Shown here one piece after another: positions 1 through 36,640 of a stretch of DNA of 64,000 nucleotides. This stretch comes from Labia minor (taxonomy: Eukaryota > Arthropoda > Insecta > Dermaptera > Spongiphoridae). A model generated the notes under the pieces. It saw nothing but the letters and a program-made list of their open reading frames with translations, searched no databases and was not told the DNA's origin. How positions within the stretch are numbered: position 1 is the first letter of the stretch; every line of letters starts with the position of its first letter. The stretch is taken from the NCBI GenBank assembly GCA_963082975.1, contig OY720345.1:77221034-77285033 (forward strand), given 5' to 3'. A program made the position numbers and the translations under genes.

Positions 1-3000
1 CATTTGAAAAAGGGAGAGAATTATGGGCATCTCTATGTGATGATGATGAATTATCCCTTGAATTAGAACGAGAAACCGGAGGAGTTGCTCTAGCTAAATT
101 GAAAAATATTCAAATAAAATAAGGTATTGCTAAAACTTTAAATAAATAGTTTATTATCATTATTATGCATTTATGGTTTTACCTTCATTTTTATGTGAGC
201 TAAGCATTCTTTTACGTTCACTTTCTACGTCCAATCCTAAAGTATTTGAAGATCTCATGAGATCTGAAGAACGTTTATCATCACTTGTATCTAATGCAGC
301 AAATTTGTTACTATTAAATGAAGCTGATTTTTTCTCATCCGTTTTCGTGGAAACTCCTCTGCGCCATTGTGAAAATTTGCCTTTATAGCCAAGTTGTAAA
401 TGGGTATCAAGTGACCCTTGCTATATAAGAGAAAAACATTATAAGAAAAATGAACTTTAAAACAAAATAATAATAAATTTATTTCAATACTGTTGATTAT
501 ATTATATATTATTAGGATGTTAAAGTAAATTATTTATAATTTTCGAAATAATATATATTAAAAAATTATTTTGATGAAAATTTGAGATTATATTAAAAAT
601 AAAGTGTTAACTAACTAACCTTTAATTGTTTAATTTTTGTTAAATCAAAAGGAGCAGGCCTTCTCCAAGATACCGATTGCCATTCCTCATTTTCTGAAAA
701 AATTTAATTTTTGATAAATTAATGAATTCACAAGAAACGAATATCAATCAATGGTTTTAATATATAATTAATGATTATTTATTTTTAAGGCAAATCTAAC
801 TTGAGTGGACATGCTTTTACATTATTTTTCATTTTAAAGTCAATAGGAGCGAACTTACTAAGTTTTCTACGATCTTGAAGTCTATCATCCTTTCGAGGAG
901 TATTCATAGTATTTAAATTAAGAGTTTCTATTGTCTCTCTTTCACGATCAGCTTCTTTTTGAATTTGATCGATAGTTTTTGGATTAGATTCATCTCTTCT
1001 GGGAACCCATTTATTTAATCGCAATTCTTCCACATCTTGTACCATAAAACGGACCCGAGATGAAATTTCTCCTCTTCGATTTGCAAGCTGTTTCATTTGA
1101 TCTATATAGGGACCGAGATCCTAAAAAAAATATTAAGATTAAAATTAAAAAATAATTATATATAATAGAAAGATTAAAATTATTAAATAATTACCTGATA
1201 ATTATTATTACTTTTACTTTCAAGATCTTTTCCAATTGTCGTAAGTAATTTACATAGACATTCTAAACTTTCTTCATCACCTCCGCTTAGTAAATGTTTG
1301 ATACATCGGATCATTATATTTACAGTCAACATCGATAATTTGTATAATTCTCCAATGAATCTAAAAATATATTTGTAGTTAAATGATAAATAGATGAACA
1401 TATAAGAGAAGAAATAGAAACTTTAATTTATAATGTTCAGATTTTAAAATCGTCAAAGATACTCAGAAACTCTAGTCTGACATAAAAAATAGTTTCATCA
1501 TTCAAAAATAAAGACAAGTGTTCTAAATAAATATTCAATCTTTCTTTTCTATTAAACAAATTATTAGTACCTTATATTTCCCAAGGATTTCATTCGAATT
1601 TTTCTCCAATCTTCATCAAATTGCAATTGTAATTCTTTCTTTTTTTCCTAAAAATACAATTTTTTTCACACAATTATTAAAGAACGATTTATTAATATTT
1701 TCATTTTTTATTAATTATATTTAATCATAAAGAAATTATCCTTAAAATATTTTTAGCTTCACTACTTTCATTAAATAATGTAATAATCATTTTATTGTTT
1801 TATTTAATCTGTATATATAATATAATAACTTACGGGATCTACACAATTTTTAATTTCCTCAAGCTTTTTATCTTTATCAATTTCTGCTTCTTTATTTTTT
1901 TCAAATTCTTCTTGACATCTATTGATTAAAATTTTTCGAAAATTACCCGTTTCAACTTTTTCACCAGGTTTTGTATTGGAAGAATTAGGGACCGCCATGT
2001 TTTGAAGAACTTTACACATTGTAGCGTAAGCAACTGAAAATGATGGCTCATCGACGGCCTAGAAGTAAACAATTAAATTTGAAATAAAAAGAAAAAGAAA
2101 ATAATAATTTATTAAAAAAATTGGATTAATTTAATACACACCTTATCGAAAACTAAATCGATTACACCTTTCAATCTTTGTGAATTATCAATCGGTAATT
2201 CTTTAACTTGATTTACCAAAGTATCGAACTTTTGAGGTGTTAATTTATTCAAAACACCTCTAACTCTTTTATATAAATCGTCTGTTTTTTGAATTTCATT
2301 ATCTACATTAGGTATGGAAGTTCCTTTAAATCTTCCAGGTTTCCAAGCATTATCTGATTCATGAAGCTTAACATCTTCTTTGAGTGATATTGAAAATTGA
2401 ATTAAATTTTGTTTTCCTCCTTTGTTAGGCTTGCCTTGTTGACTATTTCGTTTTGATAAGGTTTGCTATAGAATATAAAAAAAAATATTTGTAAATTCAT
2501 TTATATTTATTTTTATTAGTTGAGAAATTTTAAATTTTAAAATTTGATATTTACAGGCCGTAATTTAATTTAATAATTATTCTTTTAAAATAACAAGTAA
2601 TAAATAGAAAATAATTTACCCTGGTACTATTCATAACAACATCTAAATCTGGAAGATTATCAGGTTTCTTCTTTGATTCAGGATCATTCATTAACTCCAA
2701 AAGGAATTCTCGGCCATATTTCTTTTTACCAAGAGGATTAACCGGGCTCCATTGATCTAAATGTCAAAAATCAATTATTTAGAAATACAAAATATAAAAA
2801 TCTAATTATATATATATATATTGCAAATTTTGGCCAGGAATAAAAATTTACCTTGTGAATATTTAAGATTACTTCGAGGAGTTGGCTCAGTTTTGTTTAC
2901 AACAGGAACTGAAGGTTCAGTTTTTGTTTCGGTTAAGTGATTAGTAGTTTCTGTAGTTTCTGTATTTATATCATTTTTATTATCTAATTTCTCTTTTTCA

Positions 3001-6000
3001 TCATTTTCAGATGATTCATTAGCTTTAAGAAACATGTTTGGAACAACGGCTAGTTTCTGCTCAAAATTATTATTTTGAATTGTAGGTGATTCAGGTCTTG
3101 AAGAAGAATTCGAAATACTATTGGATATATTGGAATTTTTATCTTCAATTTGTGAAGGTATATTGTTAGAAGTTTTAACTTGTAAATATTTTTCATCTTC
3201 TATAGATGAAAGATCTTTCATTATAGTTGGGGCCTGGTTGGCAGATACAGGAGGAGATGGCTCTCCAGAAACAAGTTGATCAATTGTTGGAGTAGCACTA
3301 TCCGACAATTCAGGCTCAACACTTTTGGAGGTTGTATTGAAAACGGAAGTGTTTGTACTTCCAACTTGACTTCCTCTTTTGGATTTTTTCTCGTTTGAAC
3401 CTGAAAATCAAATAAAAAAAAACAAATTTAGAAAATGTTTATTTATATTAAAAATTAATTCAAAAATTCTGCAATAATATTCAATATATATAAGTGCAAA
3501 AAACTAAAATAGTTTTCAAAAATGCAATTTCTGCCAAGACAATTGCAAATTTTCTGAATAATATCAAAATGTAAAATAGAAAAATTTTTCTATTTTTCAA
3601 AAAACTTTGATTAAATTTGATAATAAAAGAAAGTCTTCTAGAATTGAAACTTTAAAAAGTTGGTTAATACATTATTTCAACAACTCTAGTTTCGTCATTT
3701 TAATAATTAAAAATATAAAACTATCTATTTCACTTATACATAAATAAATGGTACTTACTTTCATCATCGCTAGAATTAGAATTTACATTAGCCTGAGAAT
3801 GAGTAGTTTCAGCAGGTTGAACATTTGATAAATCAGGTAACGGTGAAAATTCTACAGGTAAAGCATTATTTTCAGCTTTAGTGGTGGTGAAACCACTAGT
3901 AGGAATCGAATCTTTAGATGGAGAAGGTTTCACCAATCTGAAACCATCAATATTATATTAAAACAAAATATATTTTTCTAATTTACTTAATTTATTTTCA
4001 ATATAATTTGTTTTTTAAAAAAGTCCCATTTTTAATGAAGACAATCTAAATTATATTTATTAAATATCCATAGTAAACGCATTTAACCAGTATCATTTTT
4101 GTAATATTTTATTTTTTTCTATGTTCTCTATAATAAAACTAATTTATGTGAATTTTAAATTCCTACTCTTATCAAATTTGTTTTTTTCACTTAAAATTTA
4201 TAATATATAATAACTTTTATGGAATGGAATCATGATTACTATAATTAAATGTATGAATTAAATGGAATCAAATATATATCAAATGGGAAAATATTAGAAG
4301 AAAAATAATTGAATTAAAATATATTAGCATAAAAGACAAATTACTTGTTAAAAGAATGAAATATTTATAATTATAATAAAAGCGGATCATGAAATTAATA
4401 TAATGAAATGAAAAAATGGAAAATTACAAGACTAGTTTCGAGAATTAAAATATTAAGATAGCAATTAAAGAAATTCTTGTTTATCAGTTTTAGATGTAAA
4501 CTTTAAATGTTTTTGTGATAAAAAGTGATTTTATTTCCATTAATTTTATATATAAATTAATTATTTCTATTTTTATTAACTAGATCGAATATTTTATTTA
4601 CGTTAAATATGGAACAACCTAAAAAAACTTATTATTGAAAATGATTTACCCGTCAAGATATCCCGCAGGAACAAAACGGCAAGATTCGTTAGATGCAATA
4701 TTTGATAAGGGGATTTCCCTCGGAATTGGACCAGTATTACAAGACAAAGTCTCGTTTGACGGAGCATTGCTCCCCGGAGCCGCACTAGGACGCTCCCGAT
4801 CTTTCGACTTGGAAGTTTTCTCAGAGCGTTTCTAGAAAAAAAAAATCAGTTTTAATAATAATCATAAAATTTGCTTAAGAATTTATTTTAAGAATCTCAA
4901 TTTCGAGAATTTAAGGCTCGTGAATGAATGAACTATATAATGAATCTTTATAATATATTAAATCTTTGAACCTAATACCTGAAATATACCTAATAAATGA
5001 AAATTATTCATCGTTTTTCGATAATTGTGTTTAAAAATTGATGAATAAGAGAAAAATGTGTCTCTCTATGTTAATGTTAAAATAATAAAAATTTGAAGTG
5101 AAAATTATATACCCCCATATTTCTAATTTATTATGTTTATGTCAGGCGTGAAAATTAGTAAAAAATTTCAATTAATTTACCTTACAGAAGCAAAAACATT
5201 TGAGACAACCCATATTTAATAAATATCCCCTGATAAGATTACCAGGGTACTGCCTATTATTTCAAATTTATTATTGAAGAAAAAAAAATGGATTGTTAAC
5301 TGGTAAACATAAACAAACTCGCTATATCTAAATTCTTCAAACTCCTTAACATGAATAAATACGCAATCACTAAAATTAATGCGTAACAAGAAAGCAGAAA
5401 AACTCAAAATGCGTCCCAATTACAAAGGACTAAATTTCCATAAACCTTTCTTTAATCAAAATAGTCTAGTGGTTCATTTAAAATCAATTCTAATTAGAGT
5501 ATATAAATTATTTATCTTGGAGGAAAAATATATAACTTATCTATTAGTATGATTGTTAGGAAAAATTACAATTTAGAATATTCATAAATTTTTTTCTTTT
5601 TAAGAATCAATTTTTATCTATCACTTGGATTATTAATTAATAACTATTTATTTAGAGAATAAAAATACCTTAGCTGTATGTTTATTTTGATTAGCAGAAG
5701 GCTGTATATTTTTAGTTAAAAGTCAACGGGAGGAGATTGCTCCTTTTCATCTTTTATTTTTCCTTTGTCTTGAGAAAGATTGTTTGAGCTTTGATTAATC
5801 GTTGGCCTAACATTTTTAATATTACTTGCTTTAATTTGTGAGCTATCTGACGTATTCATTTTTTTAACACACATGAACTGCTGGTGCATTGGTATTTGCA
5901 GATACAACAGGGGGCTGTAAGTTCTACAGTCTGAAAAAATCAAGAAAATATTGTGATTTATTATAAAAAAAATCAAGAATGTAAAATTTTATAATTTCAT
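1..6000. repeat. 6-kb direct duplication, copy A (partner 30641-36640)
   Basis: Base n here matches base n+30640. By eye I find three mismatches (near 130, 136 and 3964) and no indels. Identity stops abruptly after 6000, where this copy continues into further eIF4G 5' exons and the partner enters a Ty3/gypsy element. The left limit is cut by the window. It may be a recent segmental duplication or two haplotypes placed in series by the assembler. Confidence 0.95.
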
Positions 6001-6525
6001 TTCTAAAAAATAAATTTTGTAAATTAATAATATTTAAATGAATAATTATTATGATAAATAAGTAAATTAGTTGAAAATATACTTTTCTGAGTTTGAGTTT
6101 GAGGTTGTTGACCTGTAGAAACAGGTTGCATTGGCATTGTTACCATAGAAAGTTGCATTGGATGCTGTTGTATAAGAGGTAATGACTGAGTTTGCGCACC
6201 CTGTTGAACTTGTTGTCCAGTCACTGCAGGGGCTGCAGGTCTTTGTGCTACATTATAATATACTGAAACAAAAAAGATCTTATGTTTAATATAATTTAAA
6301 AAAATAATTTGTATCATTCATAATAAAATTAATCAAGATTAAAAAAATGATTTATAATTGAATTATACATACATTGATTGTTTTGATAAGGATATATATT
6401 TTGAGAATTTAACATTAGATTTGGAGGTGTAGCCGAAGCAGTTGCTTGATAATAATTATGATGATTCTGTTGTCTTTGCTGGTTGGAAAATGAAAAGTTT
6501 GGCAGAAATTGTGGATATTGCAAAG
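1..6525 (-). CDS. eIF4G: Eukaryotic translation initiation factor 4 gamma, copy A (3' end outside window)
   Basis: Scaffold of the cap-binding complex eIF4F, acting in the cytoplasm with eIF4E, eIF4A and eIF3. Exons by GT-AG splicing, in transcript order: 6525-6373, 6262-6083, 5930-5669, 4831-4650, 3937-3759, 3400-2852, 2756-2620 ([10 protein letters not shown], canonical YxxxxL-phi eIF4E-binding motif), 2465-2142, 2058-1834 ([20 protein letters not shown]4G core), 1647-1571, 1360-1195, 1120-859 ([11 protein letters not shown] and NKWVPRR, end of MIF4G), 693-620, 420-183, and 93 running off the edge. Phases agree from 4831 leftward. The Gln-rich 5' exons at 6525-6083 are in phase with each other, but exon 5930-5669 needs a one-base frame change near its end to join 4831. 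No start codon was placed; an upstream exon is likely. The eIF4E site argues against the DAP5/NAT1 paralogue. Positions 1-6000 are duplicated at 30641-36640. Confidence 0.93.
5181..5213 (-). CDS. Possible alternative first exon of eIF4G (copy A)
   Basis: On the minus strand an ATG at 5213 opens [11 protein letters not shown], followed directly by a GTAAAT donor. The frame is phase 0 with the next exon (4831-4650), so it would give an open N terminus without the exons at 5669-6525. Met-Gly-Cys with clustered cysteines resembles an N-myristoylation/palmitoylation signal. This is a prediction from sequence only; chance is possible in a short exon. The same exon is at 35821-35853. Confidence 0.35.
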
Positions 6526-6729
6526 CTATAGTAGGAAAGAAAAAATCGCTGATGGAACTCTTATTACATTCTTTTTTTAACACATTTTGTCTGTTAAGAT
6601 AAAATTTGTATTATAAATAAATTTTAATTAATTACAAATCATTTATCAAGAAGTTATTGTTTAAACCACTAAAAAAATAATTAATTAGTGGAATTGGAGT
6701 AAAAGTATATTTTTTAAATAAATATATAT

Positions 6730-7012
6730 ATATATCTCCAGGAACTGACAAGCCCTGGTTCTATACAGCCCTGCACCAGCAGGACTACTTCAAAAACAAA
6801 CAACTATAAGCAACAATAGATCGTGATGAGAATAACTCCAGGTGGTACCCAATTTACCCGTCACCTGGAGGATCCGGATCTTCACGAGCACACAAAATGA
6901 AGAATAAAGTTAACACCTAAAGAACATTCATATATGGGCCCACTTAACATCAATACCCTTAAATGTATGGGAGCTTTGCGTGATCCTAGATGGTCCAAAC
7001 GCAAATAATAAT
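6730..7012 (+). mobile_element. Possible LINE 3' fragment with TAA-type tail
   Basis: A block of mixed base composition inside very AT-rich sequence (from the CAGGAACTGACAAGCC area to TGGTCCAAACGC). It ends in an (AAT)n run followed by (TA)n. TAA-type tails are usual for I-clade LINEs. No coding domain could be read, so the assignment rests on the tail and the compositional island only. Confidence 0.3.
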
Positions 7013-7082
7013 AATATATATATATATATATATATATATTAAATTTTATAAAATGTTCTCAGAAAATATTATTATCATAATA

Positions 7083-7855
7083 CAGGGTTATGCATTATAA
7101 TAAATAAAATTATTCAATGATTTATATAAATGAAATCAAAATAAATACAAATAATTTTTATCTGTTGCAAAAAATCGTTGAAATTTGAACACTAATAAAT
7201 TAAATTAATCTAAATTTATTTATTAATTATTGTATTTATTTTGTTTTCATCTTTTTTTTTTGACCCAAATGACTTTAAATTATAACGACTCTGAAGTCGA
7301 AATATTTCTACCTGAAGAAGAATCTTCTGTAGACTCCGAACCCATAAATAACTCAAGAAAAAAACGAAACATGGTTATCTCGGAAATAATTAAAGGTGTA
7401 AGACGAGTATTTGAAAGAAATGCTTCAGTCAAAGAAATACCTGAAAATCTTGACCTCTCAATTTCGGCCGTTTATAAATTAATAAAACAAAATAGGGAGG
7501 AAATAGTTTTTACTAAAAAAGGAAGAAAAGAGACACCAAATGGAGGAAAAAAAATAAAATTTCTCCTTATCTCTTTAGAGATTCTTCATGAAGAATTGGT
7601 TTCTGAAGGAATTTTGAAGAGCCGAAATACCATCTCAAGGACCCTTAAAACCATTAAATATACTAGGAAGAAGCTCGTTAGAATTCAAATGAAACGAAAC
7701 AACCAAAGAACAGTTGAAAGTAGACAACTGTATGCAAGAGGTATAGAATAACTTAATGACTCAAATTTGGTTTTTAAATAAAATTTTGTTTATATTTATT
7801 TTGAATTTATTTATATACTATTGAATAATGTTATTTATATTAGTGCAAAACCCTG
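7083..7855 (+). mobile_element. Tc1/mariner-like element with TA target duplication, copy 1
   Basis: TA-flanked element with imperfect terminal inverted repeats: the left end starts CAGGGTTATGCATT and the right end, read in reverse, starts CAGGGTTTTGCACT; both arms then run toward a shared ATTATTCAAT. It encodes only an N-terminal transposase piece (see 7230-7751) and lacks the catalytic DDE part. A second copy, split by another element, is at 41436-42840 and shares flanking DNA on both sides. Confidence 0.85.
7230..7751 (+). CDS. Tc1/mariner-like transposase, N-terminal DNA-binding part only
   Basis: 173-codon frame inside the TIR element. Residues about 55-90 (VRRVFERNASVKEI, LDLSISAVYKLIKQN) look like a first helix-turn-helix and about 120-160 (RNTISRTLKTIKYTRKKL) like the second half of a paired-type domain that precedes the DDE core in this superfamily. 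It stops at ESRQLYARGIE; just after the stop the frame reads LNDSNLVF, where the first catalytic region would normally begin, then ends. So it could at most bind DNA. The true start is uncertain: the methionine at about residue 14 may be better than the first. Copy 2 at 42370-42736 is frameshifted. Confidence 0.7.
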   Translation: MYLFCFHLFFLTQMTLNYNDSEVEIFLPEEESSVDSEPINNSRKKRNMVISEIIKGVRRVFERNASVKEIPENLDLSISAVYKLIKQNREEIVFTKKGRKETPNGGKKIKFLLISLEILHEELVSEGILKSRNTISRTLKTIKYTRKKLVRIQMKRNNQRTVESRQLYARGIE

Positions 7856-7902
7856 TAATGAAAAAAAATCAAATAATTAATTTAAAAAAAAAATATGCAA
7901 AG

Positions 7903-8114
7903 CTTAAGGCGCCACAGGGTGAGAAGTTAGCGAAGCTGCCTCACATTCTCGTGGTCCCGGGTTCAAGTCCCAGGCCTAGCAAGGGAATTGCTCTATCTGG
8001 GGTCTATAGGACTTTGCATTGTCGATCCGACATACTTGCCCCCACCCCCTCCCTCTTCATCTCAGTATATCTACCAAGAAAATTAATATAATATTGTCTT
8101 CTATTATAACATAT
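7903..8114 (+). mobile_element. tRNA-derived SINE with a distinct tail
   Basis: The head carries a B-box-like GGTTCAAGTCCC and matches the SINE at 46612. From 8008 the body differs from the other copies (ACTTTGCATTGTCGATCC onward), and this tail recurs at 43679-43791. It is therefore a mosaic or a sister SINE family sharing the tRNA-like head. Confidence 0.65.
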
Positions 8115-8904
8115 ACAATATAATATGTTTAGTATAATATTTAATCAATAAATGAATAAATTAAAGAATAAATAAGAAAATAAAAAATAAATTAAGGCTT
8201 TGATATACTGAAATGATAATATAATTGAAAAGTCTTAAAATTAATTATTATTATATTTACATGAGCACAAATTAATGAATAATTAATTTGATTTTATTTT
8301 CATTAATTATTATATTTTTGATTCTTGAATGTTTGAGATACATATATATAATGTATATTATTGGATTACCTAAGTAAAGCATATATGGTAGATATATATA
8401 ATACATAATCATACATATAATATATATTTTTTTAATTGTGTTAGAAGCCATAGGAAAATAAATTAAAACGACTTTTTACATTTTAAGTCAATTAACCGGC
8501 ATGTAATTAAATTGAATTAAAAGATTAATTTGTCATGTTAACAAGATTCTTGAAAGAATTTAAATTAGCTTGAAGTTATCGAATTCTTTTAATAATTATC
8601 GATAAAAGTGTTTACAAAATTATTTTATCACATAATTTTAATTTACCTAAAGAGAGAGAAAAATAATAAATTTATAAATTTTAATAATATATTGAGAATT
8701 ATAAATTTTTATAGAATTTTCGTAATTTTCGATAGTAAAACATATTCAATTACTTAATGAATTTTATTTCTTGTTAGTTTGATTGAAACATCAATGAAAA
8801 GGAAATGGTTTCTTTTTATCTCACAGGAAATATTTTATCTACTATAATATTCCCTTTACATTACAATATACATATTAGTGGTTTCGAGGTTTTATCATAT
8901 TCAT
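8115..8904. other. AT-rich sequence without recognised feature
   Basis: About 790 bases of AT-rich sequence with short AT microsatellites. I see no coding frame, tRNA or repeat end. Confidence 0.5.
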
Positions 8905-10520
8905 ACACAGAGATAACAGTATATAACAGTATATGGACCCTCATATTTAGGATTTAACTTGGAAGCTATCTTGTCAGCGGCAGATGAGAGTTGGGTGATT
9001 CTCTTCAAGACAACATCACCAGGATGGAATTTATCGGGCCTTCTACGAAGATTATATCGTCGACTTTGATTCATACTAGCATGGAGGGAGTTTTCCTCTG
9101 CTAGGTGATGGACTTCGGGAATTTTACTAATTTTCTGAACCCAAAGTTCTTGATTTGTTCCTCCATCATCTAGAATTTCAGTTTCACAGATCGGTTGAAG
9201 TGGCCGAAGCTCTCTACCAAAATTTAAAAATGCGGGACTAAATTTTGTGGATTCGTGAACGGAAGAATTCAGGGCAAATTGAATTTCCCCAAGCTTTTCA
9301 TCAATTTTTGGTGGGTTTTCCCAAGATAAGAATCAATAAGTTGTTTTATATTACGATTTGACCGTTCGGTAGGATTTGCTTGTGAGTGATAAAAAGGGGT
9401 GTTGACTCTTTTTATCCCACAATCTTTAGAAACTTTATCCACTAGAGAACTAACAAAATTTTTGGCGTTATCCGTGATCAGTTGAACTGGAGCACCAAAC
9501 CGATGTAATATTTGTGCTTTTAGCTTTGCGACTATCACGTTAGAGGTGGCTCTTCTTAGTGGGCATAATTCGACCCACTTAGAAAACACATCCACGAAAA
9601 CTAAAAGATAGACATTTCCTTGAGAACTGCGGGGATATGGACCCATAATATCAACGGATACTACTTCCCAAGGTTGTTTGATATAACGAGGGTACATGAG
9701 TCCCATTGGTGGAGCATTTGGGGGCTTCACCCGTTGACATAAGTCACAGTGACGAACATAATTATAAACATCTTGGTATACGCCAGGCCAATAATAAGAT
9801 CGAATGACTCTGTCGTAAGTCTTGTATATTCCAAGATGTCCCGATTTGGGGTAGTCATGACATTCGCGCAATATAGCTTGTCTAAGACGTTTAGGGACAA
9901 CCACTTTCCATTCTTCAGAGGCATCCTCGAGTTCACCTTTTAATGGATTTTTACGGTGGTATAAGAGTTGGCCGTTTTGAATCAACCATCGAGGATGATC
10001 TCTTGGCGAATTAAGTACTCTATAATACTTCCGATCATACCACTCGTCTGGGGAGTCCTGCTGGGTCGGTGGATTCGATTTGTTGTCTACGGTAGAGGCA
10101 AGAGAAGCAACGACAACGATACGAGAAAGAGCATCGGCAACGGTATTAAGTTTACCCTTTCGATATTGGACATCAAAAGTATAAGCTTGTAATCGGAGTG
10201 CCCATCTGGCTAGACGTCCAGTGGGATCCTTAAGGTTAATAAGCCATTTGAGGCTTGCGTGATCGGTAACAACGGTAAAAGAATACCCTTCCAAGTAATG
10301 GCGATTTTTTTCAATGCCAAAGAGAACGGCGAGACATTCCTTTTCAGTGACGCTATAATTACGTTCGGCTGAATTTAAAGTTCTTGAACAATAGGCAATG
10401 ACTCGCTCGTGTCCTTCTTGTATTTGAGATAGGACTGCGCCTAAGCCGGTATTACTTGCGTCTGTTTGCAGAGTGAACGGTAGCGAAAAATCGGGTCGGG
10501 CGAGAACAGATGCTATGGCT
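8905..10520 (-). mobile_element. Ty3/gypsy pol fragment: RNase H, integrase and C-terminal region
   Basis: Read on the minus strand from about 10520. RNase H of the reverse transcriptase (LQTDASNTGLGAVLSQ, then YSVTEKECLAVLFG) leads into a 341-codon open frame (10294-9269) with the RNase H end (VVTDHASLKWL, VADALSR), the H2C2 zinc-binding region (GHLGIYKTYDRVIRSYYWPG, CDLCQRVK) and the integrase core with D (SVDIMGPYP), D (LITDNAKNF) and E (NPTERSNRN). A frameshift near 9280 separates the C-terminal part, which continues to about 8905 (LNPKYEGPY). No reverse-transcriptase palm, gag or LTR was found, so it is a 5'-truncated, decayed copy. Its right end abuts the RS-rich ORF without a visible boundary. 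Confidence 0.9.
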
Positions 10521-10928: not shown

Positions 10929-10981
10929 AATAAATATATAGCTTAATTATATATATATATTTTGTAATGAAATTTTAATGA

Positions 10982-11061
10982 TAGCAATTCTGGAGTATTT
11001 TATTTTTTGAAGAATTTCCTGTGAAATTAAATAAAGAATGGGATATTCTCCAGAATTGCTT
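10982..11061. repeat. Short inverted repeat with about 14-bp arms
   Basis: AGCAATTCTGGAG near 10984 is matched by its reverse complement CTCCAGAATTGCT near 11048-11060, enclosing about 50 bases. It lies just upstream of the RS-rich ATG. It could be a small foldback element. Confidence 0.6.
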
Positions 11062-11099
11062 AAATTAATATGAAACCCAAAAAAAAATCAAAATTCCAA

Positions 11100-21610: not shown

Positions 21611-21667
21611 ACCTGAGTGTAATTTTCAAATTTTTTTGTTTTTGATTTGATTTTTTGTTTTTTAATC

Positions 21668-25277: not shown

Positions 25278-26149
25278 TATACCTAAGTATATAATAATAA
25301 GATTTATAGAAACTTTTTATTGATTAAAAATACATCTTTAAGAAAAAAAACCTCAAATAAATAGCGTATAGGTGTATTTATATGTAATTATATTAAAATG
25401 AATAAAAATAGATTTATATGTACTTTTTAAGAGTTATGTATATATAAAACTTTAATATGAAAAATGTAAAAAATTATCAATGTATATTGAAATGGAAAAG
25501 AAATTGTTAAAGTTAAATCATATTGTCATCAATGTTTTTTTTTTTTTTTTTGTAAGTTAATAAAAGCAACTTTAATATAAAAATTTAACAAAATACTCAT
25601 TGAATTTTGAATATTATTACGATGTGAAAATATTACTTTAATATAAAAATTAAATAAATTACTCTTGTTTATTTGTATTTAAATGTAAAATTGATGTTTT
25701 ATTTAAAAAAGACGATTGTATTTAATATTTTTAACGTATATATTAATTAATATTAATTATTAAATATAATAATAATTCATTAATGTTAATAAATATTATA
25801 AAATGAAATTTGTGAATTTATTTTGTTTTACTTATTCAATCCCATATCCTTTACCATATTCTTTATATATATTATAAATAAATAAATAAATCGTTATATA
25901 ATATATGTACATATTATTTATTATATGATTTCTCAAACTTTAGTCTCATAAATTAATACAAGTTTGTAAAATTTTAAATAATTAAGAATATTTTTAATAG
26001 ATAGAATCCATGAATATTTTTTACTTGATATTTAAATTAATATCATATATTATAATAATTAATAATTAATATCAAATATTAATTTAAATAAAAAAAGAAA
26101 AAAAATATTCTCGATTGGGTGTTGAAACAAAGGATAACAAAAAACATAA
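25278..26149. other. 3' flank of F-box/LRR gene, AT-rich
   Basis: Contains a possible polyadenylation signal at 25357 and an (A)/(T) run near 25540. No further gene seen. Confidence 0.5.
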
Positions 26150-26390
26150 AAAATTAAAAAAAGAAATTTTTAAAAATAAATAATATATTCTTTCATTTTA
26201 CATAATAAAAATATTAAAAAAATATATTATAAATATTATAATTAATTTTTACCTCTCATAATTTTTACGGTAAAATTATAAAATTAAATTTTTAAAAATA
26301 AATAATAAATTCGTTCATTTTACATCATAAAATAATTATTTTTTTATGCCGAAAACGAAGGGTCATCGTCGGCCAACATTTCATAATTAA
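26150..26390. repeat. Isolated satellite monomers
   Basis: Shares AATAAATTCGTTCATTTTAC and ATGCCGAAAACGAAGGGTC with the 17.2-19.8 kb array, including the GTCGGCCAAC variant found at that array's edge (19510 region). Shows that the satellite family is dispersed. Confidence 0.8.
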
Positions 26391-26607
26391 AATAATAATA
26401 ATCAAAATAAATAATACAATAAATAAAGTAATTGAAAAATGAAATTAATGATGAAAATGAATACAGATCATTTGTTACAATGTATTCCTATCTTTAAGGG
26501 CGAGTCAAACGTACTCCAAAGATAAAATTTATAGCGCATTTCCTTATGACTAGCACGAATTTCTCCTCAGGTACGTTAGAGATAAAATTCAAGGCCGTGT
26601 CAATGAA

Positions 26608-27693
26608 ATGCTGACCCACGTAAATCTAACCATCTGGGAAGATTTAAGAAAGGATCCTAGGCACATATTTCGCGAAACAAAAAGCGAGAGTAATCCCTAC
26701 GATTCAAATTACAATAGACAATTCGCTCCCAGAAATCACTCTCATTCTAATAATTATCAAAATTACCACCCCCCTCCCCGCTACCACAATTCGCAAGGCC
26801 CTTTTAATCATTTCACCTCACGAAATGTTAACCAACTCCCCCAATTTAGAAACAATGGCATGCCCCAACAAATTCTGGACCTAATGAAACCAGACGTAGA
26901 AGCGGGTAGACAGTCAGATTTTAATAGGCAAAAATTAAAAATAGAGCAAATCAAAAAAATAGAGGGTCAAAATGAAAATGTATCGTTTATAGACAATATA
27001 ACTAAGTCAGACAAAATTGAAAAAATAAATATTGGGTTGGAAAATAGAGAAATTGTAATAAAAGAGCAGGTACCAGAAATAGTAAATTTAAAAGAAAGAA
27101 TTGACCAGGCCCCGGAGGCAATGTCTATTAGCAAAATTCAAATTTCAAAAAGTCCAAATAGGGATAATAAAGAAAATATAGAAACAATAGGGAAGGGACC
27201 AGAGTGTAGAAAATTAAAAGAAAAAATTGACACATGCATGAAAATAATTCCCAGTGTTCCGATAAAAGAATTTACAAAAAGGAAAAATATACCGATGGAC
27301 GCAGTCAAAATAAATTCTAAGGAGCCCACAGAGGTAATGTCATGGAGAAAGATGCCCATTGTTCTGATAGGTGTAGTGTCAGGTAGCGAAGAGCAAGAGA
27401 AATTAGAAATGGAAAGTACCTGCAATATAATTGATAAATTTAAAACACACACCCCCCTTGGGCCCATTCAAATTAGAATAAATAAAAACAATAATTTTTT
27501 TTCAATCTCCTATAGAAAATACACGGGAGTTATATCGAATAAAATTTTAATAATAAATAATAAAAACAAGGCATCGCATATTTCGAGACATTCAAAGCAA
27601 GGCACCCGTCCCAAGCTTTTTTATAGAAATCAATTAGTAGTTGTTTGCAAAATTAAATATCATATTGTGTTAGTAAATTATATTAGATCATGA
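26608..27693 (+). CDS. gag-like ORF of LTR retrotransposon
   Basis: 361 codons. Residues about 1-25 (NLTIWEDLRKDPRHIF), with upstream in-frame VRDKIQGRVNEM from about 26572, look like the end of a retrotransposon capsid. Residues 25-95 are a His/Asn/Pro-rich low-complexity linker; the rest is Lys/Glu/Ile-rich and unrecognised. The end of the frame overlaps the start of the repeat ORF by 17 bases in a different frame. Function beyond gag is not claimed. Confidence 0.5.
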   Translation: MLTHVNLTIWEDLRKDPRHIFRETKSESNPYDSNYNRQFAPRNHSHSNNYQNYHPPPRYHNSQGPFNHFTSRNVNQLPQFRNNGMPQQILDLMKPDVEAGRQSDFNRQKLKIEQIKKIEGQNENVSFIDNITKSDKIEKINIGLENREIVIKEQVPEIVNLKERIDQAPEAMSISKIQISKSPNRDNKENIETIGKGPECRKLKEKIDTCMKIIPSVPIKEFTKRKNIPMDAVKINSKEPTEVMSWRKMPIVLIGVVSGSEEQEKLEMESTCNIIDKFKTHTPLGPIQIRINKNNNFFSISYRKYTGVISNKILIINNKNKASHISRHSKQGTRPKLFYRNQLVVVCKIKYHIVLVNYIRS

Positions 27694-28636
27694 AGTTAAT
27701 GATAGTCATAATATTAATAATAGTAATAATAATTCGTCTTGTCCGTATTCTGTAAATTTAAATAATAAAACTTTTGATACCGTAAATGAAATTGATAATA
27801 AGAACAATGATAGTGTTAAAATTAATAGAAATAATAGTTCTTCTTGTCTGTCTTCTGTAAATTTAAATATTAAAACGTTTATTACAGTAATTGAATTTGA
27901 TAATAAAAATTGTGATAGTGTTAAAATTAATAGTAATAAGAAGCCTTTTAGTCCGTCTTCTGTAGATTTAAATAATGAAACTTTTATTACAGTAAGTGAA
28001 ATTGATAATAAGAATAATGATAGTGTTAATATTAATAGTGATAATAATTCTTCTTGTCCGTCTTATGTAAAATTAAATGAAAAAACTTTTGATCCATTAA
28101 TTGAAATTAATAGTGTTAATGATATTAATAATATTAGTCCTGCTAGTCCGTCCAGTGTAAATTTAAATAATAAACCTTTTGATACGGAAATTGAAATTAA
28201 TAATAACACTAATCATAATGTTAAAAATAATTGTAATAATAATCCCCCTCGTCTGTCTTATGTAAATTTAAAAGAAAAAATTTGTGAATCAATAATTGAA
28301 ATTAATAATGTTAATAGTAATAATTGTCCTGATAGTCTGTTTTATGTCGTTCTGTCTGTGAATGAAAAGCCATCATTAACAGAAACCGAGCCTGAAATTA
28401 GCCAACGAAATGATCTCTCAAATAAACATCCTAATGAATTTTTCCAGCACTTAAAAAATAAAATCGAGTCTATAAAAGTAACTAAAAACATACCTGCGGA
28501 TATTGTCAATCGTACGTCCCATCATAGTCTAAATAAATCATTAATAAATGAAATTCTGTCTGAGTCTAGTCTGTTAACGGTTAGAAATAAAAAAATTGCT
28601 AAGTCTCCAAGTTTAAATGCAATGAACCAAATATAG
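27677..28636 (+). CDS. 320-codon open frame with six 35-residue repeats, gag-related, no early ATG
   Basis: Open from just after TAA 27674-27676 to TAG 28636. Six repeats of the form SSVNLNNKTFDTVNEIDN...NNDSVKIN start (at the first GTA codon) at 27752, 27857, 27962, 28067, 28157 and 28262: spacing 105, 105, 105, 90, 105 bp, all multiples of three. The tail holds RNDLSNKHPNEFFQHLK, matching the capsid-like region of the gag at 12942-13568, where a single repeat unit is present. The only convenient ATG is 28358, after the repeats. Either translation starts upstream by frameshift/fusion or the frame is a recent relic. Very Asn-rich. Confidence 0.6.
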   Translation: MILDHEVNDSHNINNSNNNSSCPYSVNLNNKTFDTVNEIDNKNNDSVKINRNNSSSCLSSVNLNIKTFITVIEFDNKNCDSVKINSNKKPFSPSSVDLNNETFITVSEIDNKNNDSVNINSDNNSSCPSYVKLNEKTFDPLIEINSVNDINNISPASPSSVNLNNKPFDTEIEINNNTNHNVKNNCNNNPPRLSYVNLKEKICESIIEINNVNSNNCPDSLFYVVLSVNEKPSLTETEPEISQRNDLSNKHPNEFFQHLKNKIESIKVTKNIPADIVNRTSHHSLNKSLINEILSESSLLTVRNKKIAKSPSLNAMNQI

Positions 28637-29232
28637 AAAAATATGTCCCGTCTCTCATAAAAAAAATTGGGAATTAGATAAAAGTCTGTCGTATAAAAAA
28701 TATTTCTTGTTCAATAATGTCTCGTTCATGAGAGACAAAATAATTAAATTATCCCGTCTAGTCGTACCATTGTTTTTTTTTAAATTTAATAGGCAATTCA
28801 TTTCAAGTTTATAATAGTCACTTTGGTATAGCTAAAAAGAAAAACCAAATGATTAGCCGTTCAGATTTATATTAGAAAAATTTAATTAAAATTGTAATGT
28901 CTGATTTCAATGCATTTAATTGTCTGTCACAAAGTCTGTTTTAAGAATTAGTTTTGAAGTATAAATGGAATAGAGGTTTCCAACTGTTTTGTCATTATCT
29001 TATAGGGAATGGTAAATTTCATTGGAAAATGATGTGTCTATAAAAAAATATAAATAAGAAATAATTGTCATTAAAATGAATAAAATTGGAAAATTATATA
29101 CTTATAATTATGATAGAGGTGTATTTTGTATTGAAACTAACAAAAAGAAAAAGTTAAATTTTTTAATTTATATTTTTAAAAAAAATAAAATTGTATAATA
29201 TGAAATACTATTTATATAAATGTCTTAATAAA
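28637..29232. other. AT-rich interval between gag-like ORF and eIF4G 3' end
   Basis: Scattered GTCTGTC-type words resembling the gag-like region are visible to about 28930, but no gene. Confidence 0.45.
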
Positions 29233-32200
29233 TTATAATATTAAAATTTCACTCTCTTGTGAAAGTTCACCAGAAATAAAATCTTTAATTTCAACGTTTT
29301 GAGATTCCATTTCTTGACGTATAGTTGCAGGATTCTAAAACAAAAAAAAATAATTGTTGAATTCGCAAAAATAAACCATTTTCTCTTTTTTCTTTATAAT
29401 TACTAAATTTTATAAATTTATTTATACATAAAAAATAGTTTTTTTTTCCCTCAGAATCAATTTGCATCAAGTTATCTCAGAAACTCTAGTCTGACTTAAA
29501 AAGTTATGTTTTATCATTTTATTTAAAATACAAAATTAAAATATGCATGTAAAATTAATTATAAATAATATAAACTGATTTATTATTCATTACCTGAGTC
29601 TTCACAATTATTTGAAATAAATGAGGAAGAAGTTTAGAACAATCAATATCTTTAATTTTAATAGCATCTCGGAATTGAGCCCAAGAAATGGATTTCGAAG
29701 TAATAAGTGGGGCTAAAAAAAATGAAAATACATTAAATAATAACTTATTATAGAAATATATCAAATCAAAATAATAATTTAGTTTTTTCAGCCCTGTTGA
29801 GCTTCAATCCATCATAGAGATCCGTAAATAAATTATCATCATGTTTAAATTATTTATTATATATATAAAATGCTTAAGATGGAAAAAAATATTAAAAAAG
29901 TTTAATTACCAAGGAAATCCGCAGCAAAGTTCCAAAACTTGGGAACATCAATGATAATATCTTTAGCTATTTCAAATATATCCATAAAACTAAAAATATA
30001 AATAATATTAAAATAATATAAATAATTATTAATTAAATATAAAAATTAAGTTTAAACATACCCATTCAAGATATCATCAACTTTCAAAATATCATTTGAT
30101 ACAAGATGTATTAACATTTTAGAAATGCTTTCGCGAACATTAACCGATCTTTCAATTCCAAGGTTAAGTAAAATATTAACAAATTCAGATCGTTGTTCTT
30201 CAATTAATTCCTCAAGAACATTATCTGAGAGTTCCTATAATTCAAATAATTATAATTAATTGAAAGAAAATAATAAGATATATATAATTTAAAATCTATA
30301 AAATTCAGTAACGAGGAATTCCAAAATAAATCTTCAATGAAATTATTAAGAAAAAGAATATTCATCATATATATATTACATATATATATATATATAAAAG
30401 TGTGTATGAATCAAGAAAATATAATTACTTTTAAATTGTCGTTTGATAAATATTCATCAAGAATATTTGATGTATGTAGTTTCAGTTGATTTTCATCTAA
30501 TTTTACTGGAGCTTTCAATAGTCCAGATGTTGAATTGAGATTATGTGATGTATTTGGAGGAATAATTGGTCTTGTAGTTGGAGTAATATTTGAAGTTTGT
30601 CCAACTCCACTTGAAGATGTTACTGATGGGGATATCCCAACATTTGAAAAAGGGAGAGAATTATGGGCATCTCTATGTGATGATGATGAATTATCCCTTG
30701 AATTAGAACGAGAAACCGGAGGAGTTGCTCTAGCTAAATTGAAAAATATTCAAATAAAATAAGGTATTGGTAAAAATTTAAATAAATAGTTTATTATCAT
30801 TATTATGCATTTATGGTTTTACCTTCATTTTTATGTGAGCTAAGCATTCTTTTACGTTCACTTTCTACGTCCAATCCTAAAGTATTTGAAGATCTCATGA
30901 GATCTGAAGAACGTTTATCATCACTTGTATCTAATGCAGCAAATTTGTTACTATTAAATGAAGCTGATTTTTTCTCATCCGTTTTCGTGGAAACTCCTCT
31001 GCGCCATTGTGAAAATTTGCCTTTATAGCCAAGTTGTAAATGGGTATCAAGTGACCCTTGCTATATAAGAGAAAAACATTATAAGAAAAATGAACTTTAA
31101 AACAAAATAATAATAAATTTATTTCAATACTGTTGATTATATTATATATTATTAGGATGTTAAAGTAAATTATTTATAATTTTCGAAATAATATATATTA
31201 AAAAATTATTTTGATGAAAATTTGAGATTATATTAAAAATAAAGTGTTAACTAACTAACCTTTAATTGTTTAATTTTTGTTAAATCAAAAGGAGCAGGCC
31301 TTCTCCAAGATACCGATTGCCATTCCTCATTTTCTGAAAAAATTTAATTTTTGATAAATTAATGAATTCACAAGAAACGAATATCAATCAATGGTTTTAA
31401 TATATAATTAATGATTATTTATTTTTAAGGCAAATCTAACTTGAGTGGACATGCTTTTACATTATTTTTCATTTTAAAGTCAATAGGAGCGAACTTACTA
31501 AGTTTTCTACGATCTTGAAGTCTATCATCCTTTCGAGGAGTATTCATAGTATTTAAATTAAGAGTTTCTATTGTCTCTCTTTCACGATCAGCTTCTTTTT
31601 GAATTTGATCGATAGTTTTTGGATTAGATTCATCTCTTCTGGGAACCCATTTATTTAATCGCAATTCTTCCACATCTTGTACCATAAAACGGACCCGAGA
31701 TGAAATTTCTCCTCTTCGATTTGCAAGCTGTTTCATTTGATCTATATAGGGACCGAGATCCTAAAAAAAATATTAAGATTAAAATTAAAAAATAATTATA
31801 TATAATAGAAAGATTAAAATTATTAAATAATTACCTGATAATTATTATTACTTTTACTTTCAAGATCTTTTCCAATTGTCGTAAGTAATTTACATAGACA
31901 TTCTAAACTTTCTTCATCACCTCCGCTTAGTAAATGTTTGATACATCGGATCATTATATTTACAGTCAACATCGATAATTTGTATAATTCTCCAATGAAT
32001 CTAAAAATATATTTGTAGTTAAATGATAAATAGATGAACATATAAGAGAAGAAATAGAAACTTTAATTTATAATGTTCAGATTTTAAAATCGTCAAAGAT
32101 ACTCAGAAACTCTAGTCTGACATAAAAAATAGTTTCATCATTCAAAAATAAAGACAAGTGTTCTAAATAAATATTCAATCTTTCTTTTCTATTAAACAAA

Positions 32201-35200
32201 TTATTAGTACCTTATATTTCCCAAGGATTTCATTCGAATTTTTCTCCAATCTTCATCAAATTGCAATTGTAATTCTTTCTTTTTTTCCTAAAAATACAAT
32301 TTTTTTCACACAATTATTAAAGAACGATTTATTAATATTTTCATTTTTTATTAATTATATTTAATCATAAAGAAATTATCCTTAAAATATTTTTAGCTTC
32401 ACTACTTTCATTAAATAATGTAATAATCATTTTATTGTTTTATTTAATCTGTATATATAATATAATAACTTACGGGATCTACACAATTTTTAATTTCCTC
32501 AAGCTTTTTATCTTTATCAATTTCTGCTTCTTTATTTTTTTCAAATTCTTCTTGACATCTATTGATTAAAATTTTTCGAAAATTACCCGTTTCAACTTTT
32601 TCACCAGGTTTTGTATTGGAAGAATTAGGGACCGCCATGTTTTGAAGAACTTTACACATTGTAGCGTAAGCAACTGAAAATGATGGCTCATCGACGGCCT
32701 AGAAGTAAACAATTAAATTTGAAATAAAAAGAAAAAGAAAATAATAATTTATTAAAAAAATTGGATTAATTTAATACACACCTTATCGAAAACTAAATCG
32801 ATTACACCTTTCAATCTTTGTGAATTATCAATCGGTAATTCTTTAACTTGATTTACCAAAGTATCGAACTTTTGAGGTGTTAATTTATTCAAAACACCTC
32901 TAACTCTTTTATATAAATCGTCTGTTTTTTGAATTTCATTATCTACATTAGGTATGGAAGTTCCTTTAAATCTTCCAGGTTTCCAAGCATTATCTGATTC
33001 ATGAAGCTTAACATCTTCTTTGAGTGATATTGAAAATTGAATTAAATTTTGTTTTCCTCCTTTGTTAGGCTTGCCTTGTTGACTATTTCGTTTTGATAAG
33101 GTTTGCTATAGAATATAAAAAAAAATATTTGTAAATTCATTTATATTTATTTTTATTAGTTGAGAAATTTTAAATTTTAAAATTTGATATTTACAGGCCG
33201 TAATTTAATTTAATAATTATTCTTTTAAAATAACAAGTAATAAATAGAAAATAATTTACCCTGGTACTATTCATAACAACATCTAAATCTGGAAGATTAT
33301 CAGGTTTCTTCTTTGATTCAGGATCATTCATTAACTCCAAAAGGAATTCTCGGCCATATTTCTTTTTACCAAGAGGATTAACCGGGCTCCATTGATCTAA
33401 ATGTCAAAAATCAATTATTTAGAAATACAAAATATAAAAATCTAATTATATATATATATATTGCAAATTTTGGCCAGGAATAAAAATTTACCTTGTGAAT
33501 ATTTAAGATTACTTCGAGGAGTTGGCTCAGTTTTGTTTACAACAGGAACTGAAGGTTCAGTTTTTGTTTCGGTTAAGTGATTAGTAGTTTCTGTAGTTTC
33601 TGTATTTATATCATTTTTATTATCTAATTTCTCTTTTTCATCATTTTCAGATGATTCATTAGCTTTAAGAAACATGTTTGGAACAACGGCTAGTTTCTGC
33701 TCAAAATTATTATTTTGAATTGTAGGTGATTCAGGTCTTGAAGAAGAATTCGAAATACTATTGGATATATTGGAATTTTTATCTTCAATTTGTGAAGGTA
33801 TATTGTTAGAAGTTTTAACTTGTAAATATTTTTCATCTTCTATAGATGAAAGATCTTTCATTATAGTTGGGGCCTGGTTGGCAGATACAGGAGGAGATGG
33901 CTCTCCAGAAACAAGTTGATCAATTGTTGGAGTAGCACTATCCGACAATTCAGGCTCAACACTTTTGGAGGTTGTATTGAAAACGGAAGTGTTTGTACTT
34001 CCAACTTGACTTCCTCTTTTGGATTTTTTCTCGTTTGAACCTGAAAATCAAATAAAAAAAAACAAATTTAGAAAATGTTTATTTATATTAAAAATTAATT
34101 CAAAAATTCTGCAATAATATTCAATATATATAAGTGCAAAAAACTAAAATAGTTTTCAAAAATGCAATTTCTGCCAAGACAATTGCAAATTTTCTGAATA
34201 ATATCAAAATGTAAAATAGAAAAATTTTTCTATTTTTCAAAAAACTTTGATTAAATTTGATAATAAAAGAAAGTCTTCTAGAATTGAAACTTTAAAAAGT
34301 TGGTTAATACATTATTTCAACAACTCTAGTTTCGTCATTTTAATAATTAAAAATATAAAACTATCTATTTCACTTATACATAAATAAATGGTACTTACTT
34401 TCATCATCGCTAGAATTAGAATTTACATTAGCCTGAGAATGAGTAGTTTCAGCAGGTTGAACATTTGATAAATCAGGTAACGGTGAAAATTCTACAGGTA
34501 AAGCATTATTTTCAGCTTTAGTGGTGGTGAAACCACTAGTAGGAATCGAATCTTTAGATGGAGAAGGTTTCACCAATCTGAAACCATCAATATTATATTA
34601 AAAAAAAATATATTTTTCTAATTTACTTAATTTATTTTCAATATAATTTGTTTTTTAAAAAAGTCCCATTTTTAATGAAGACAATCTAAATTATATTTAT
34701 TAAATATCCATAGTAAACGCATTTAACCAGTATCATTTTTGTAATATTTTATTTTTTTCTATGTTCTCTATAATAAAACTAATTTATGTGAATTTTAAAT
34801 TCCTACTCTTATCAAATTTGTTTTTTTCACTTAAAATTTATAATATATAATAACTTTTATGGAATGGAATCATGATTACTATAATTAAATGTATGAATTA
34901 AATGGAATCAAATATATATCAAATGGGAAAATATTAGAAGAAAAATAATTGAATTAAAATATATTAGCATAAAAGACAAATTACTTGTTAAAAGAATGAA
35001 ATATTTATAATTATAATAAAAGCGGATCATGAAATTAATATAATGAAATGAAAAAATGGAAAATTACAAGACTAGTTTCGAGAATTAAAATATTAAGATA
35101 GCAATTAAAGAAATTCTTGTTTATCAGTTTTAGATGTAAACTTTAAATGTTTTTGTGATAAAAAGTGATTTTATTTCCATTAATTTTATATATAAATTAA

Positions 35201-36570
35201 TTATTTCTATTTTTATTAACTAGATCGAATATTTTATTTACGTTAAATATGGAACAACCTAAAAAAACTTATTATTGAAAATGATTTACCCGTCAAGATA
35301 TCCCGCAGGAACAAAACGGCAAGATTCGTTAGATGCAATATTTGATAAGGGGATTTCCCTCGGAATTGGACCAGTATTACAAGACAAAGTCTCGTTTGAC
35401 GGAGCATTGCTCCCCGGAGCCGCACTAGGACGCTCCCGATCTTTCGACTTGGAAGTTTTCTCAGAGCGTTTCTAGAAAAAAAAAATCAGTTTTAATAATA
35501 ATCATAAAATTTGCTTAAGAATTTATTTTAAGAATCTCAATTTCGAGAATTTAAGGCTCGTGAATGAATGAACTATATAATGAATCTTTATAATATATTA
35601 AATCTTTGAACCTAATACCTGAAATATACCTAATAAATGAAAATTATTCATCGTTTTTCGATAATTGTGTTTAAAAATTGATGAATAAGAGAAAAATGTG
35701 TCTCTCTATGTTAATGTTAAAATAATAAAAATTTGAAGTGAAAATTATATACCCCCATATTTCTAATTTATTATGTTTATGTCAGGCGTGAAAATTAGTA
35801 AAAAATTTCAATTAATTTACCTTACAGAAGCAAAAACATTTGAGACAACCCATATTTAATAAATATCCCCTGATAAGATTACCAGGGTACTGCCTATTAT
35901 TTCAAATTTATTATTGAAGAAAAAAAAATGGATTGTTAACTGGTAAACATAAACAAACTCGCTATATCTAAATTCTTCAAACTCCTTAACATGAATAAAT
36001 ACGCAATCACTAAAATTAATGCGTAACAAGAAAGCAGAAAAACTCAAAATGCGTCCCAATTACAAAGGACTAAATTTCCATAAACCTTTCTTTAATCAAA
36101 ATAGTCTAGTGGTTCATTTAAAATCAATTCTAATTAGAGTATATAAATTATTTATCTTGGAGGAAAAATATATAACTTATCTATTAGTATGATTGTTAGG
36201 AAAAATTACAATTTAGAATATTCATAAATTTTTTTCTTTTTAAGAATCAATTTTTATCTATCACTTGGATTATTAATTAATAACTATTTATTTAGAGAAT
36301 AAAAATACCTTAGCTGTATGTTTATTTTGATTAGCAGAAGGCTGTATATTTTTAGTTAAAAGTCAACGGGAGGAGATTGCTCCTTTTCATCTTTTATTTT
36401 TCCTTTGTCTTGAGAAAGATTGTTTGAGCTTTGATTAATCGTTGGCCTAACATTTTTAATATTACTTGCTTTAATTTGTGAGCTATCTGACGTATTCATT
36501 TTTTTAACACACATGAACTGCTGGTGCATTGGTATTTGCAGATACAACAGGGGGCTGTAAGTTCTACAGT
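29233..36570 (-). CDS. eIF4G: Eukaryotic translation initiation factor 4 gamma, copy B (3' complete)
   Basis: Exons in transcript order: 36570-36309 (frame breaks near its end), 35471-35290, 34577-34399, 34040-33492, 33396-33260 (eIF4E site [10 protein letters not shown]), 33105-32782, 32698-32474, 32287-32211, 32000-31835, 31760-31499 (MIF4G), 31333-31260 ([12 protein letters not shown]), 31060-30823, 30733-30429, 30234-30062, 29989-29910, 29712-29594 (MA3: [31 protein letters not shown]), 29334-29233 with stop. All phases from 35471 on agree: 1063 codons plus stop. The product ends about ten residues past MA3 ([12 protein letters not shown]), so no W2/HEAT-3 domain follows, unlike Drosophila or human eIF4G. 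The Gln-rich 5' exons of copy A are absent: beyond 36640 lies a Ty3/gypsy element. The alternative ATG exon at 35853 would give a 1074-residue frame. Confidence 0.93.
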
Positions 36571-36640
36571 CTGAAAAAATCAAGAAAATATTGTGATTTA
36601 TTATAAAAAAAATCAAGAATGTAAAATTTTATAATTTCAT
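30641..36640. repeat. 6-kb direct duplication, copy B (partner 1-6000)
   Basis: See copy A. The right breakpoint is exact at 36640, where the sequence changes to the 5'-truncated Ty3/gypsy element. The left limit cannot be defined because copy A starts at the window edge. Confidence 0.95.
35821..35853 (-). CDS. Possible alternative first exon of eIF4G (copy B)
   Basis: Same [11 protein letters not shown] exon as at 5181-5213, phase 0 into 35471-35290. In this copy it is the only visible start that gives an uninterrupted frame to the stop at 29233. Expression unproven. Confidence 0.35.

Follow-up and report, generated by a model that had tools for sequence, protein, structure and literature searches.

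In cap-dependent translation, the initiation factor eIF4G serves as the scaffold; its genes are conserved and usually number one or a few. An insect duplicate is the testis-specific paralogue eIF4G2 of Drosophila. Segmental duplications are repeats of genomic DNA, introns included, with a length of at least 1 kb and an identity of at least 90%. A well-described form is the primate core duplicon LCR16a, with the gene NPIP. In this system, a gene-bearing segment is reported at many interspersed places, with a gene structure that has been changed repeatedly and a reading frame that is open; the mechanisms proposed include element-mediated recombination and the formation of circular intermediates (PMC7419210, PMC9132208). 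EIF4G1 is listed among the B-chromosome genes of the cavefish Astyanax mexicanus (PMC7509943). Here we analyze a 64,000-nucleotide stretch of the dermapteran Labia minor (contig C2, 77221034–77285033; hereafter the window), which contains repeated eIF4G sequence. This locus is, in all probability, a young and real tandem segmental duplication of a truncated eIF4G copy, with three units of ∼30.1–30.6 kb, the last cut short, and is part of a DNA-mediated interspersed amplification that has placed ∼49 copies on five contigs.

Results

Structure of the array

A preliminary description of the window, made from its letters, reported two tandem copies of most of eIF4G, at 1–6000 (copy A) and 30641–36640 (copy B), with about three base differences. 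Alignment confirms the near-identity: there are 3 mismatches (130/30770, 136/30776 and 3964/34604) and no gap (99.95%), and beyond 6000 and 36640 identity drops to ∼30–40%, the chance level. The repeat is thus real, although the count of two needs revision. It continues to the left of base 1, which is the window edge only, and self-comparison of a 264-kb stretch (the window plus 100 kb on each side) defines three tandem units, at −36458 to −6023, −6022 to 24610 and 24611 to 36640 in window coordinates. Across the array, copies of the 1–6000 piece are spaced by 30,116 and 30,640 bases. One common stretch joins each pair of units: 18,800 bases for units 1 and 2 (99.98%), 16,657 for units 2 and 3 (99.89%) and 10,491 for units 1 and 3 (99.84%). 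Shorter aligned stretches are of two kinds, at 98.4% and 99.4%, giving an overall range of 98.4–99.98%. Unit 1 has ∼3.6 kb (−15800 to −12148) that is private with respect to unit 2, and unit 2 has ∼4.1 kb (15846 to 19984) that is private with respect to unit 1. Extending over at least 1 kb at no less than 90% identity, with introns included, the window repeat qualifies as a segmental duplication.

A frame with a weak leucine-rich-repeat match is interrupted by the left edge of the array; its counterparts spanning the 1/2 and 2/3 junctions are intact. At the right edge (36640), eIF4G sequence between exons meets a retroelement that apparently lacks its own 5′ end. Its reverse transcriptase (RT), RNase H and integrase domains lie in a frame starting at 37260; a further frame at 36759–37229 is gag-like by eye only, with two weak Pfam matches of other kinds, both below cut-offs. 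Two statements of the preliminary description hold here, namely that copy A keeps the 5′ Gln-rich exons (at ∼6.1–6.5 kb) and that copy B is cut at 36640 by a truncated retroelement. For the 5′ exon region (6001–6740), self-comparison gave no second copy of at least 300 bases within the window, no match for unit 3 of at least 200 bases was found at offsets of 29–62 kb in the 264-kb stretch, and the whole-genome search gave no match beside unit 3. Since these searches place no 5′ exon region beside unit 3, insertion of the retroelement into an otherwise complete copy B is rejected as a full account.

Two other repetitive features lie within the units. A second retroelement occupies 8901–10597; it is oriented on the minus strand and has domains for RNase H and integrase. 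The private ∼4.1 kb of unit 2 contains a nested AT-rich tandem array (17188–19760), whose period is 162 bases and which also shows a higher-order copy of ∼1.1 kb.

Identity of the gene

In copy L031 (C2:86.59 Mb), thirteen exons (d–p) join through GT-AG sites into an open frame of 986 codons. Compared with human eIF4G1, the 986-residue join aligns over residues 296–713 (E 7.6e-89), a span that takes in both the eIF4E-binding motif and MIF4G. A 13-residue stretch in exon g, which we take to be the eIF4E-binding motif, aligns in L031 opposite human eIF4G1 KKRYDREFLLGF. Its position upstream of MIF4G is that of a canonical eIF4G1-type protein. Past exon p, where one acceptor site is ambiguous, L031 also has open frames that code for the W2 end, followed by a stop, and its place scores W2 at 30.6 bits (cut-off 30; C2:86594581), with 27 bits for one exon alone. 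In the window copies the gene breaks in exon s and W2 is absent. Introns split the other domains, such that MIF4G on exon i alone scores 26.8 bits (Pfam cut-off 30.8) and MA3 on exon p alone 16.5 bits (cut-off 23.2). Genome-wide, none of 5 MA3 matches falls at an eIF4G place, the domain being split by introns.

Dispersed copies

We searched the genome (604 Mb, 71 contigs) in six frames and found MIF4G above its cut-off at each of ∼49 canonical eIF4G places, on five contigs (23 on C2, 13 on C9, 6 on C5, 4 on C4 and 3 on C1). These places derive from 129 exon-level MIF4G matches (150 of 157 candidates scored), by counting the segment near the MIF4G end plus one place showing the middle segment only; all genome counts are lower bounds. 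Five other MIF4G places, presumed to be other genes, were left out: C1:16.93, where MIF4G and MA3 share one 835-residue frame, C6:21.37, C10:9.47, C10:67.89 and C2:38.16. At the last of these (C2:38154756–38160833), a W2 match lies ∼5 kb downstream of the MIF4G match, and the gene may, judging from these domains, be an eIF4G2-type or diverged eIF4G gene. The genome may contain a further, separate eIF4G.

Using the 1–6000 piece as query, we obtained 46 genome matches (25 of 74 candidates scored), 12 of them full-length at 99–100%, including the window's own two. The copies compared are mostly 94–100% identical to the window copy. The 5′ Gln-rich exon region gave 44 matches at 96–100% (40 of 48 candidates scored), of which 40 were tabulated, the other four being second pieces. 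These exons lie upstream, on the matching strand, at 40 of the 49 places, 4.8 to 31 kb away. Farther upstream is a flank that travels with the eIF4G copies. It is present within 20 kb at 29 of the 49 places and within 60 kb at 31, where one flank then serves two neighbouring copies. The search for it (40 of 2210 candidates scored) gave 44 matches; we tabulated 30, leaving out two pieces inside the window, seven short ones elsewhere and five that were second pieces of places already entered. Most of those tabulated (27/30) lie no more than 10 kb from a same-strand 5′ exon match. A frame in the flank (7227–7751) has only weak matches of helix-turn-helix/transposase type, below cut-offs. In having one shared core, the gene, at 49 non-allelic places, the family resembles a core duplicon.

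Several arrangements were seen alongside these. Near-copies (96–98%) of the upstream frame region lie at 7024–7883 and 41377–42868, the latter interrupted by a repeat of ∼650 bases, further copies of which lie at 15966, 51265 and 56474. Two pairs of eIF4G copies stand in opposite orientation, like palindromes: C1:20.307/20.318 Mb (11 kb apart) and C9:27.877/27.918 Mb (41 kb apart). Two others, at C2:85095340 and 85126078, are 30,738 bases apart, nearly the period of the window array. Both keep the 3′ end lost from the window copies, and the one at 85126078 (L008) lacks the exon-s break described below.

Lesions shared among copies

The copies read are units 1–3 and L004–L008 (together, the window-type copies) as well as L029, L030 and L031. 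L004 is at C2:43.2, L005 at C2:76.7, L006 at C4:65.3, and L007 and L008 at C2:85.2 and 85.1 Mb, respectively. All eight window-type copies are missing exon h, which comprises 35 codons and has a phase-0 intron on either side; the three others all retain it. If the neighbouring exons are spliced together, its deletion would keep the frame. Compared with L029 and L030, the window copy has intron deletions at 1512 and 3585, the former also in comparison with L031.

A break in exon s (at −1367, and at 29266 in copy B), which removes the W2 end, is common to units 1–3, L004, L005 and L006. The same break is therefore found in copies 34 Mb away on C2 and on C4. By our reading of the sequence, it would add a short tail and a stop. 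L007 and L008 lack the break but have a two-base insertion in exon s, a frameshift; at −980 they also have a change of Ile to Met, worked out by hand. The preliminary description took copy B to keep its 3′ end, which is mistaken, as the W2 exons present in L031 are missing from all three units. Among 93 matches to the L031 3′ end (40 of 61 candidates scored), none falls at C2:77.2, 76.7 or 43.2 or at C4:65. This 3′ end is mostly kept at 17 places, including L031 and the 85.x copies. Ten further places have only its two outer parts, indicating an internal deletion, and some, such as those near C5:69, have no more than the final ∼117 bases plus a single short match that looks repeat-like. Loss of the C-terminal end has therefore followed more than one route. 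Loss also affects the other end of the gene, with the stretch that carries the 5′ exons missing in L029.

Introns are kept in all 11 copies read, with GT-AG at nearly all listed exons. For exons d–r, the flanking dinucleotides are AG/GT wherever scored, except for the exon e donor of L030 (a gap) and the exon m donor of L029 (AT), which lie beside indels. In an unrooted tree of the 11 copies, L007/L008 and then L031 fall between the truncated copies and L029/L030.

Possible selection on the copies

Selection might maintain the copies, either for the dosage of eIF4G or for the truncated isoforms that lack the W2 end. Some observations point this way. Ten copies have no in-frame stop over exons d–p (the sequence used reaches exon o in L029 and exon p in L030), and the chance of zero stops among 54 distinct replacements is 0.036 under neutrality. 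Exon indels are multiples of three except at badly aligned or masked ends (in L029: −15, +18, +12 and −9, plus a +4 where exon m ends next to an indel of the intron), although another count scored two exon indels of L029 as not divisible by three. They are also far rarer than intron indels (P = 1.2e-3 for L029, 1.9e-5 for L030 and 1.3e-4 for unit 2), a contrast weakened by the ease with which AT-rich introns gain indels. Pairwise NG86 ratios among L031, unit 2, L007, L029 and L030 are 0.34–0.66 for nine pairs, with values of 0.34–0.50 against L031. In these estimates, the last 30 bases of exon m are masked in L029 and L030, and exon e of L030, badly aligned beside an in-frame insertion, adds a few false replacements.

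Other observations argue against such maintenance. Substitution rates in exons and introns do not differ significantly (P = 0.50, 0.43 and 0.12; 0.73 within the window-type copies), and the eight window-type copies have similar numbers of variable sites in exons (16/3043) and introns (17/2824); in the exon and intron counts, and in the Fisher tests built from them, the bounds of exon r are off, by ∼13 bases in ∼3000. Replacement and silent changes number 54 and 24, compared to a neutral expectation of 3.08 to 1 (P = 0.23). The tenth NG86 ratio, for L029–L030, is 0.89, and L007 and L008 have the frameshift in exon s. As for positive selection, none of the ten pairwise ratios (0.34–0.89) exceeds 1, with few changes to go on. 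On balance, maintenance of the copies by selection seems unlikely. We read the data as indicating an ancestry under constraint, after which the gene was copied recently and its copies drifted almost freely; the window copies look like young, truncated and probably near-neutral passengers.

Features of the window

Coordinates are collected in Table 1. Beside the tabulated exons, the 5′ eIF4G exon region has a plausible frame at 5719–5930 (including a run of 14 residues) that soon stops, while another frame is open.

Table 1. Features of the window. Exon bounds were set by alignment to L031; A and B denote the two copies.
Feature	Position	Strand	Remarks
Copy A, within unit 2: exons d–n and part of o of eIF4G, introns included	1–6000	−	
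Copy B, within unit 3; truncated 5′ at 36640	30641–36640	−	
5′ Gln-rich exons, copy A	6001–6740 (exons ∼6.1–6.5 kb)	−	44 genome matches at 96–100%
Exon d	A 4650–4831; B 35290–35471	−	
Exon e	A 3759–3937; B 34399–34577	−	
Exon f	A 2852–3400; B 33492–34040	−	
Exon g, presumed eIF4E-binding motif (13 residues)	A 2620–2756; B 33260–33396	−	aligned to human eIF4G1
Deletion site that removed exon h in the window-type copies read	2561–2566	−	
Exon i, MIF4G start	A 2142–2465; B 32782–33105	−	
Exon j, MIF4G	A 1834–2058; B 32474–32698	−	
Exon k	A 1571–1647; B 32211–32287	−	
Exon l, MIF4G	A 1195–1360; B 31835–32000	−	
Exon m, MIF4G end	A 821–1120; B 31461–31760	−	
Exon n	A 183–420; B 30823–31060	−	
Exon o	B 30429–30733	−	
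Exon p, weak MA3 match	B 30062–30234	−	16.5 bits in L031, below cut-off
Exons q (29910–29989) and r (29594–29712)	B 29594–29989	−	
Exon s, first 69 of 97 bases; gene breaks at 29266, W2 exons gone	B 29266–29334	−	
Upstream flank travelling with eIF4G copies	7240–8859		98.4% in L029
Frame of 445 residues, weak leucine-rich-repeat match (26.2 bits, cut-off 40)	23940–25277	+	spans unit 2/3 junction
Unit 3, partial	24611–36640		unit 2/3 junction 24610/24611
Retroelement: RT, RNase H, integrase	36641–39921	+	gypsy-type by inference

Near the array, a GC-rich island occupies 53661–55679 (GC content 0.54 in 54–56 kb, compared to 0.24–0.27 in neighbouring 2-kb steps), with a 529-base direct repeat (98.9%) at its edges. 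The C-terminal GHH domain of teneurins, which are animal proteins, is found (108 bits) in a frame that lies 94 kb rightward of the window start. Another frame, to the left, is chitin-binding-like by eye, and Pfam gave no family for it.

Discussion

The preliminary description, starting from the premise that eIF4G is a single-copy gene, weighed a very recent segmental duplication against a false duplication formed from two haplotypes. With ∼49 places in the genome, the premise fails, and the first of its two readings is the one that survives: there are three units, and the same exon deletion and 3′ break recur at C2:43.2, C2:76.7 and C4:65.3 Mb. An assembler error, either of haplotypes or in the repeat graph, would account for the very high identity (3 differences in 6 kb), and the private ∼3.6 kb of unit 1 and ∼4.1 kb of unit 2 are what haplotypes differing by inserts might show. 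Neither fits with a third unit, with copies truncated in the same manner both on a different contig and at a distance of 34 Mb on C2, or with some 46 further places at which inserts and spacing vary. Lesions shared by copies so far apart, one of them on another contig, argue against a simple haplotype duplicate; given the third unit and the dispersed copies, we reject that artefact and regard false duplication in general as very unlikely. Processed pseudogenes made by reverse transcription would also be numerous and dispersed. That introns are kept, and that the upstream flank travels with many copies, indicates instead that the sequence spread as DNA. Retroposition is ruled out for the 11 copies read and, for the family, is hardly conceivable.

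It is harder to set aside the idea that eIF4G is cargo of one large transposon with fixed ends, moving between chromosomes. The dispersal over five contigs, the shared module of gene plus upstream flank and isolated copies such as those at C2:43.2 and C4:13.0 would all be expected. Against it, the copy ends that we see differ: L029 lacks the 5′ exon stretch, W2 was lost in several ways and the edge of the array lies inside a frame. We regard such a transposon as unlikely. Duplication of genomic segments, culminating in a tandem array at 77.2 Mb, remains the preferred account, and three points weigh against it. Of the 49 copies, 11 were read base by base, most of them over part of their length; the exact number of units at 77.2 Mb is that given by the assembly; and the mode of copying is inferred, the outer breakpoints of dispersed copies lying outside the sequence read.

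The order of events might be as follows. The full-length gene, together with its upstream flank, would have been duplicated to many sites. One descendant would then have lost exon h, and one of that copy's own descendants the W2 end, through the break in exon s. This truncated form would have dispersed to C2:43.2, C2:76.7, C2:77.2 and C4:65.3 Mb and been multiplied in tandem at 77.2 Mb, where a rearrangement joining the truncated retroelement would have cut the last unit. The copying itself most likely involved dispersed transposable-element sequences, between which recombination or replication would have occurred; such a mechanism has been proposed for interspersed segmental duplications. A bolder and rather improbable possibility is that this is a mobile core duplicon of a translation-initiation factor in an insect, in which several full-length sources feed a swarm lacking the W2 end and one internal exon, and whose members either yield shortened eIF4G variants through their expression or influence translation in the germ line in a way that favours their own transmission.

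Some 49 copies represent a striking amplification of a gene for the scaffold of cap-dependent translation. They form a natural series, from full-length copies through those without exon h and those also without W2 to the tandem array, that bears on how interspersed duplications start and on whether the cell tolerates or uses truncated eIF4G. There is also a practical side, in that marker sets assuming single-copy eIF4G may misjudge such genomes.

The family resembles the eIF4G1 genes of animals in its eIF4E-binding motif, MIF4G and W2 regions. It differs in number, with ∼49 copies rather than one or a few, and in structure, as an exon of 35 codons is absent from the window-type copies and the W2 end from most of those read. 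Drosophila eIF4G2 is one old, diverged paralogue, in contrast to the dozens of very similar copies here. In the titles and abstract openings of the open-access literature searched, we found no report of eIF4G amplification in insects. The closest analogue is the primate core duplicon LCR16a/NPIP (PMC7419210, PMC9132208). Both have an interspersed gene-bearing core and changes of structure with an open frame, and transposable-element sequences, implicated in the primate system, probably took part here as well. In Labia minor, however, the gene is a canonical translation factor, the copies are on five contigs and the host is an insect; moreover, positive selection is reported for NPIP in African apes, whereas none is seen in the eIF4G copies. 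The B chromosome of A. mexicanus is similar in having extra eIF4G copies in a non-standard place, which there is a supernumerary chromosome and here five large contigs. What is unusual in the present case is which gene has been amplified, and in how many copies.

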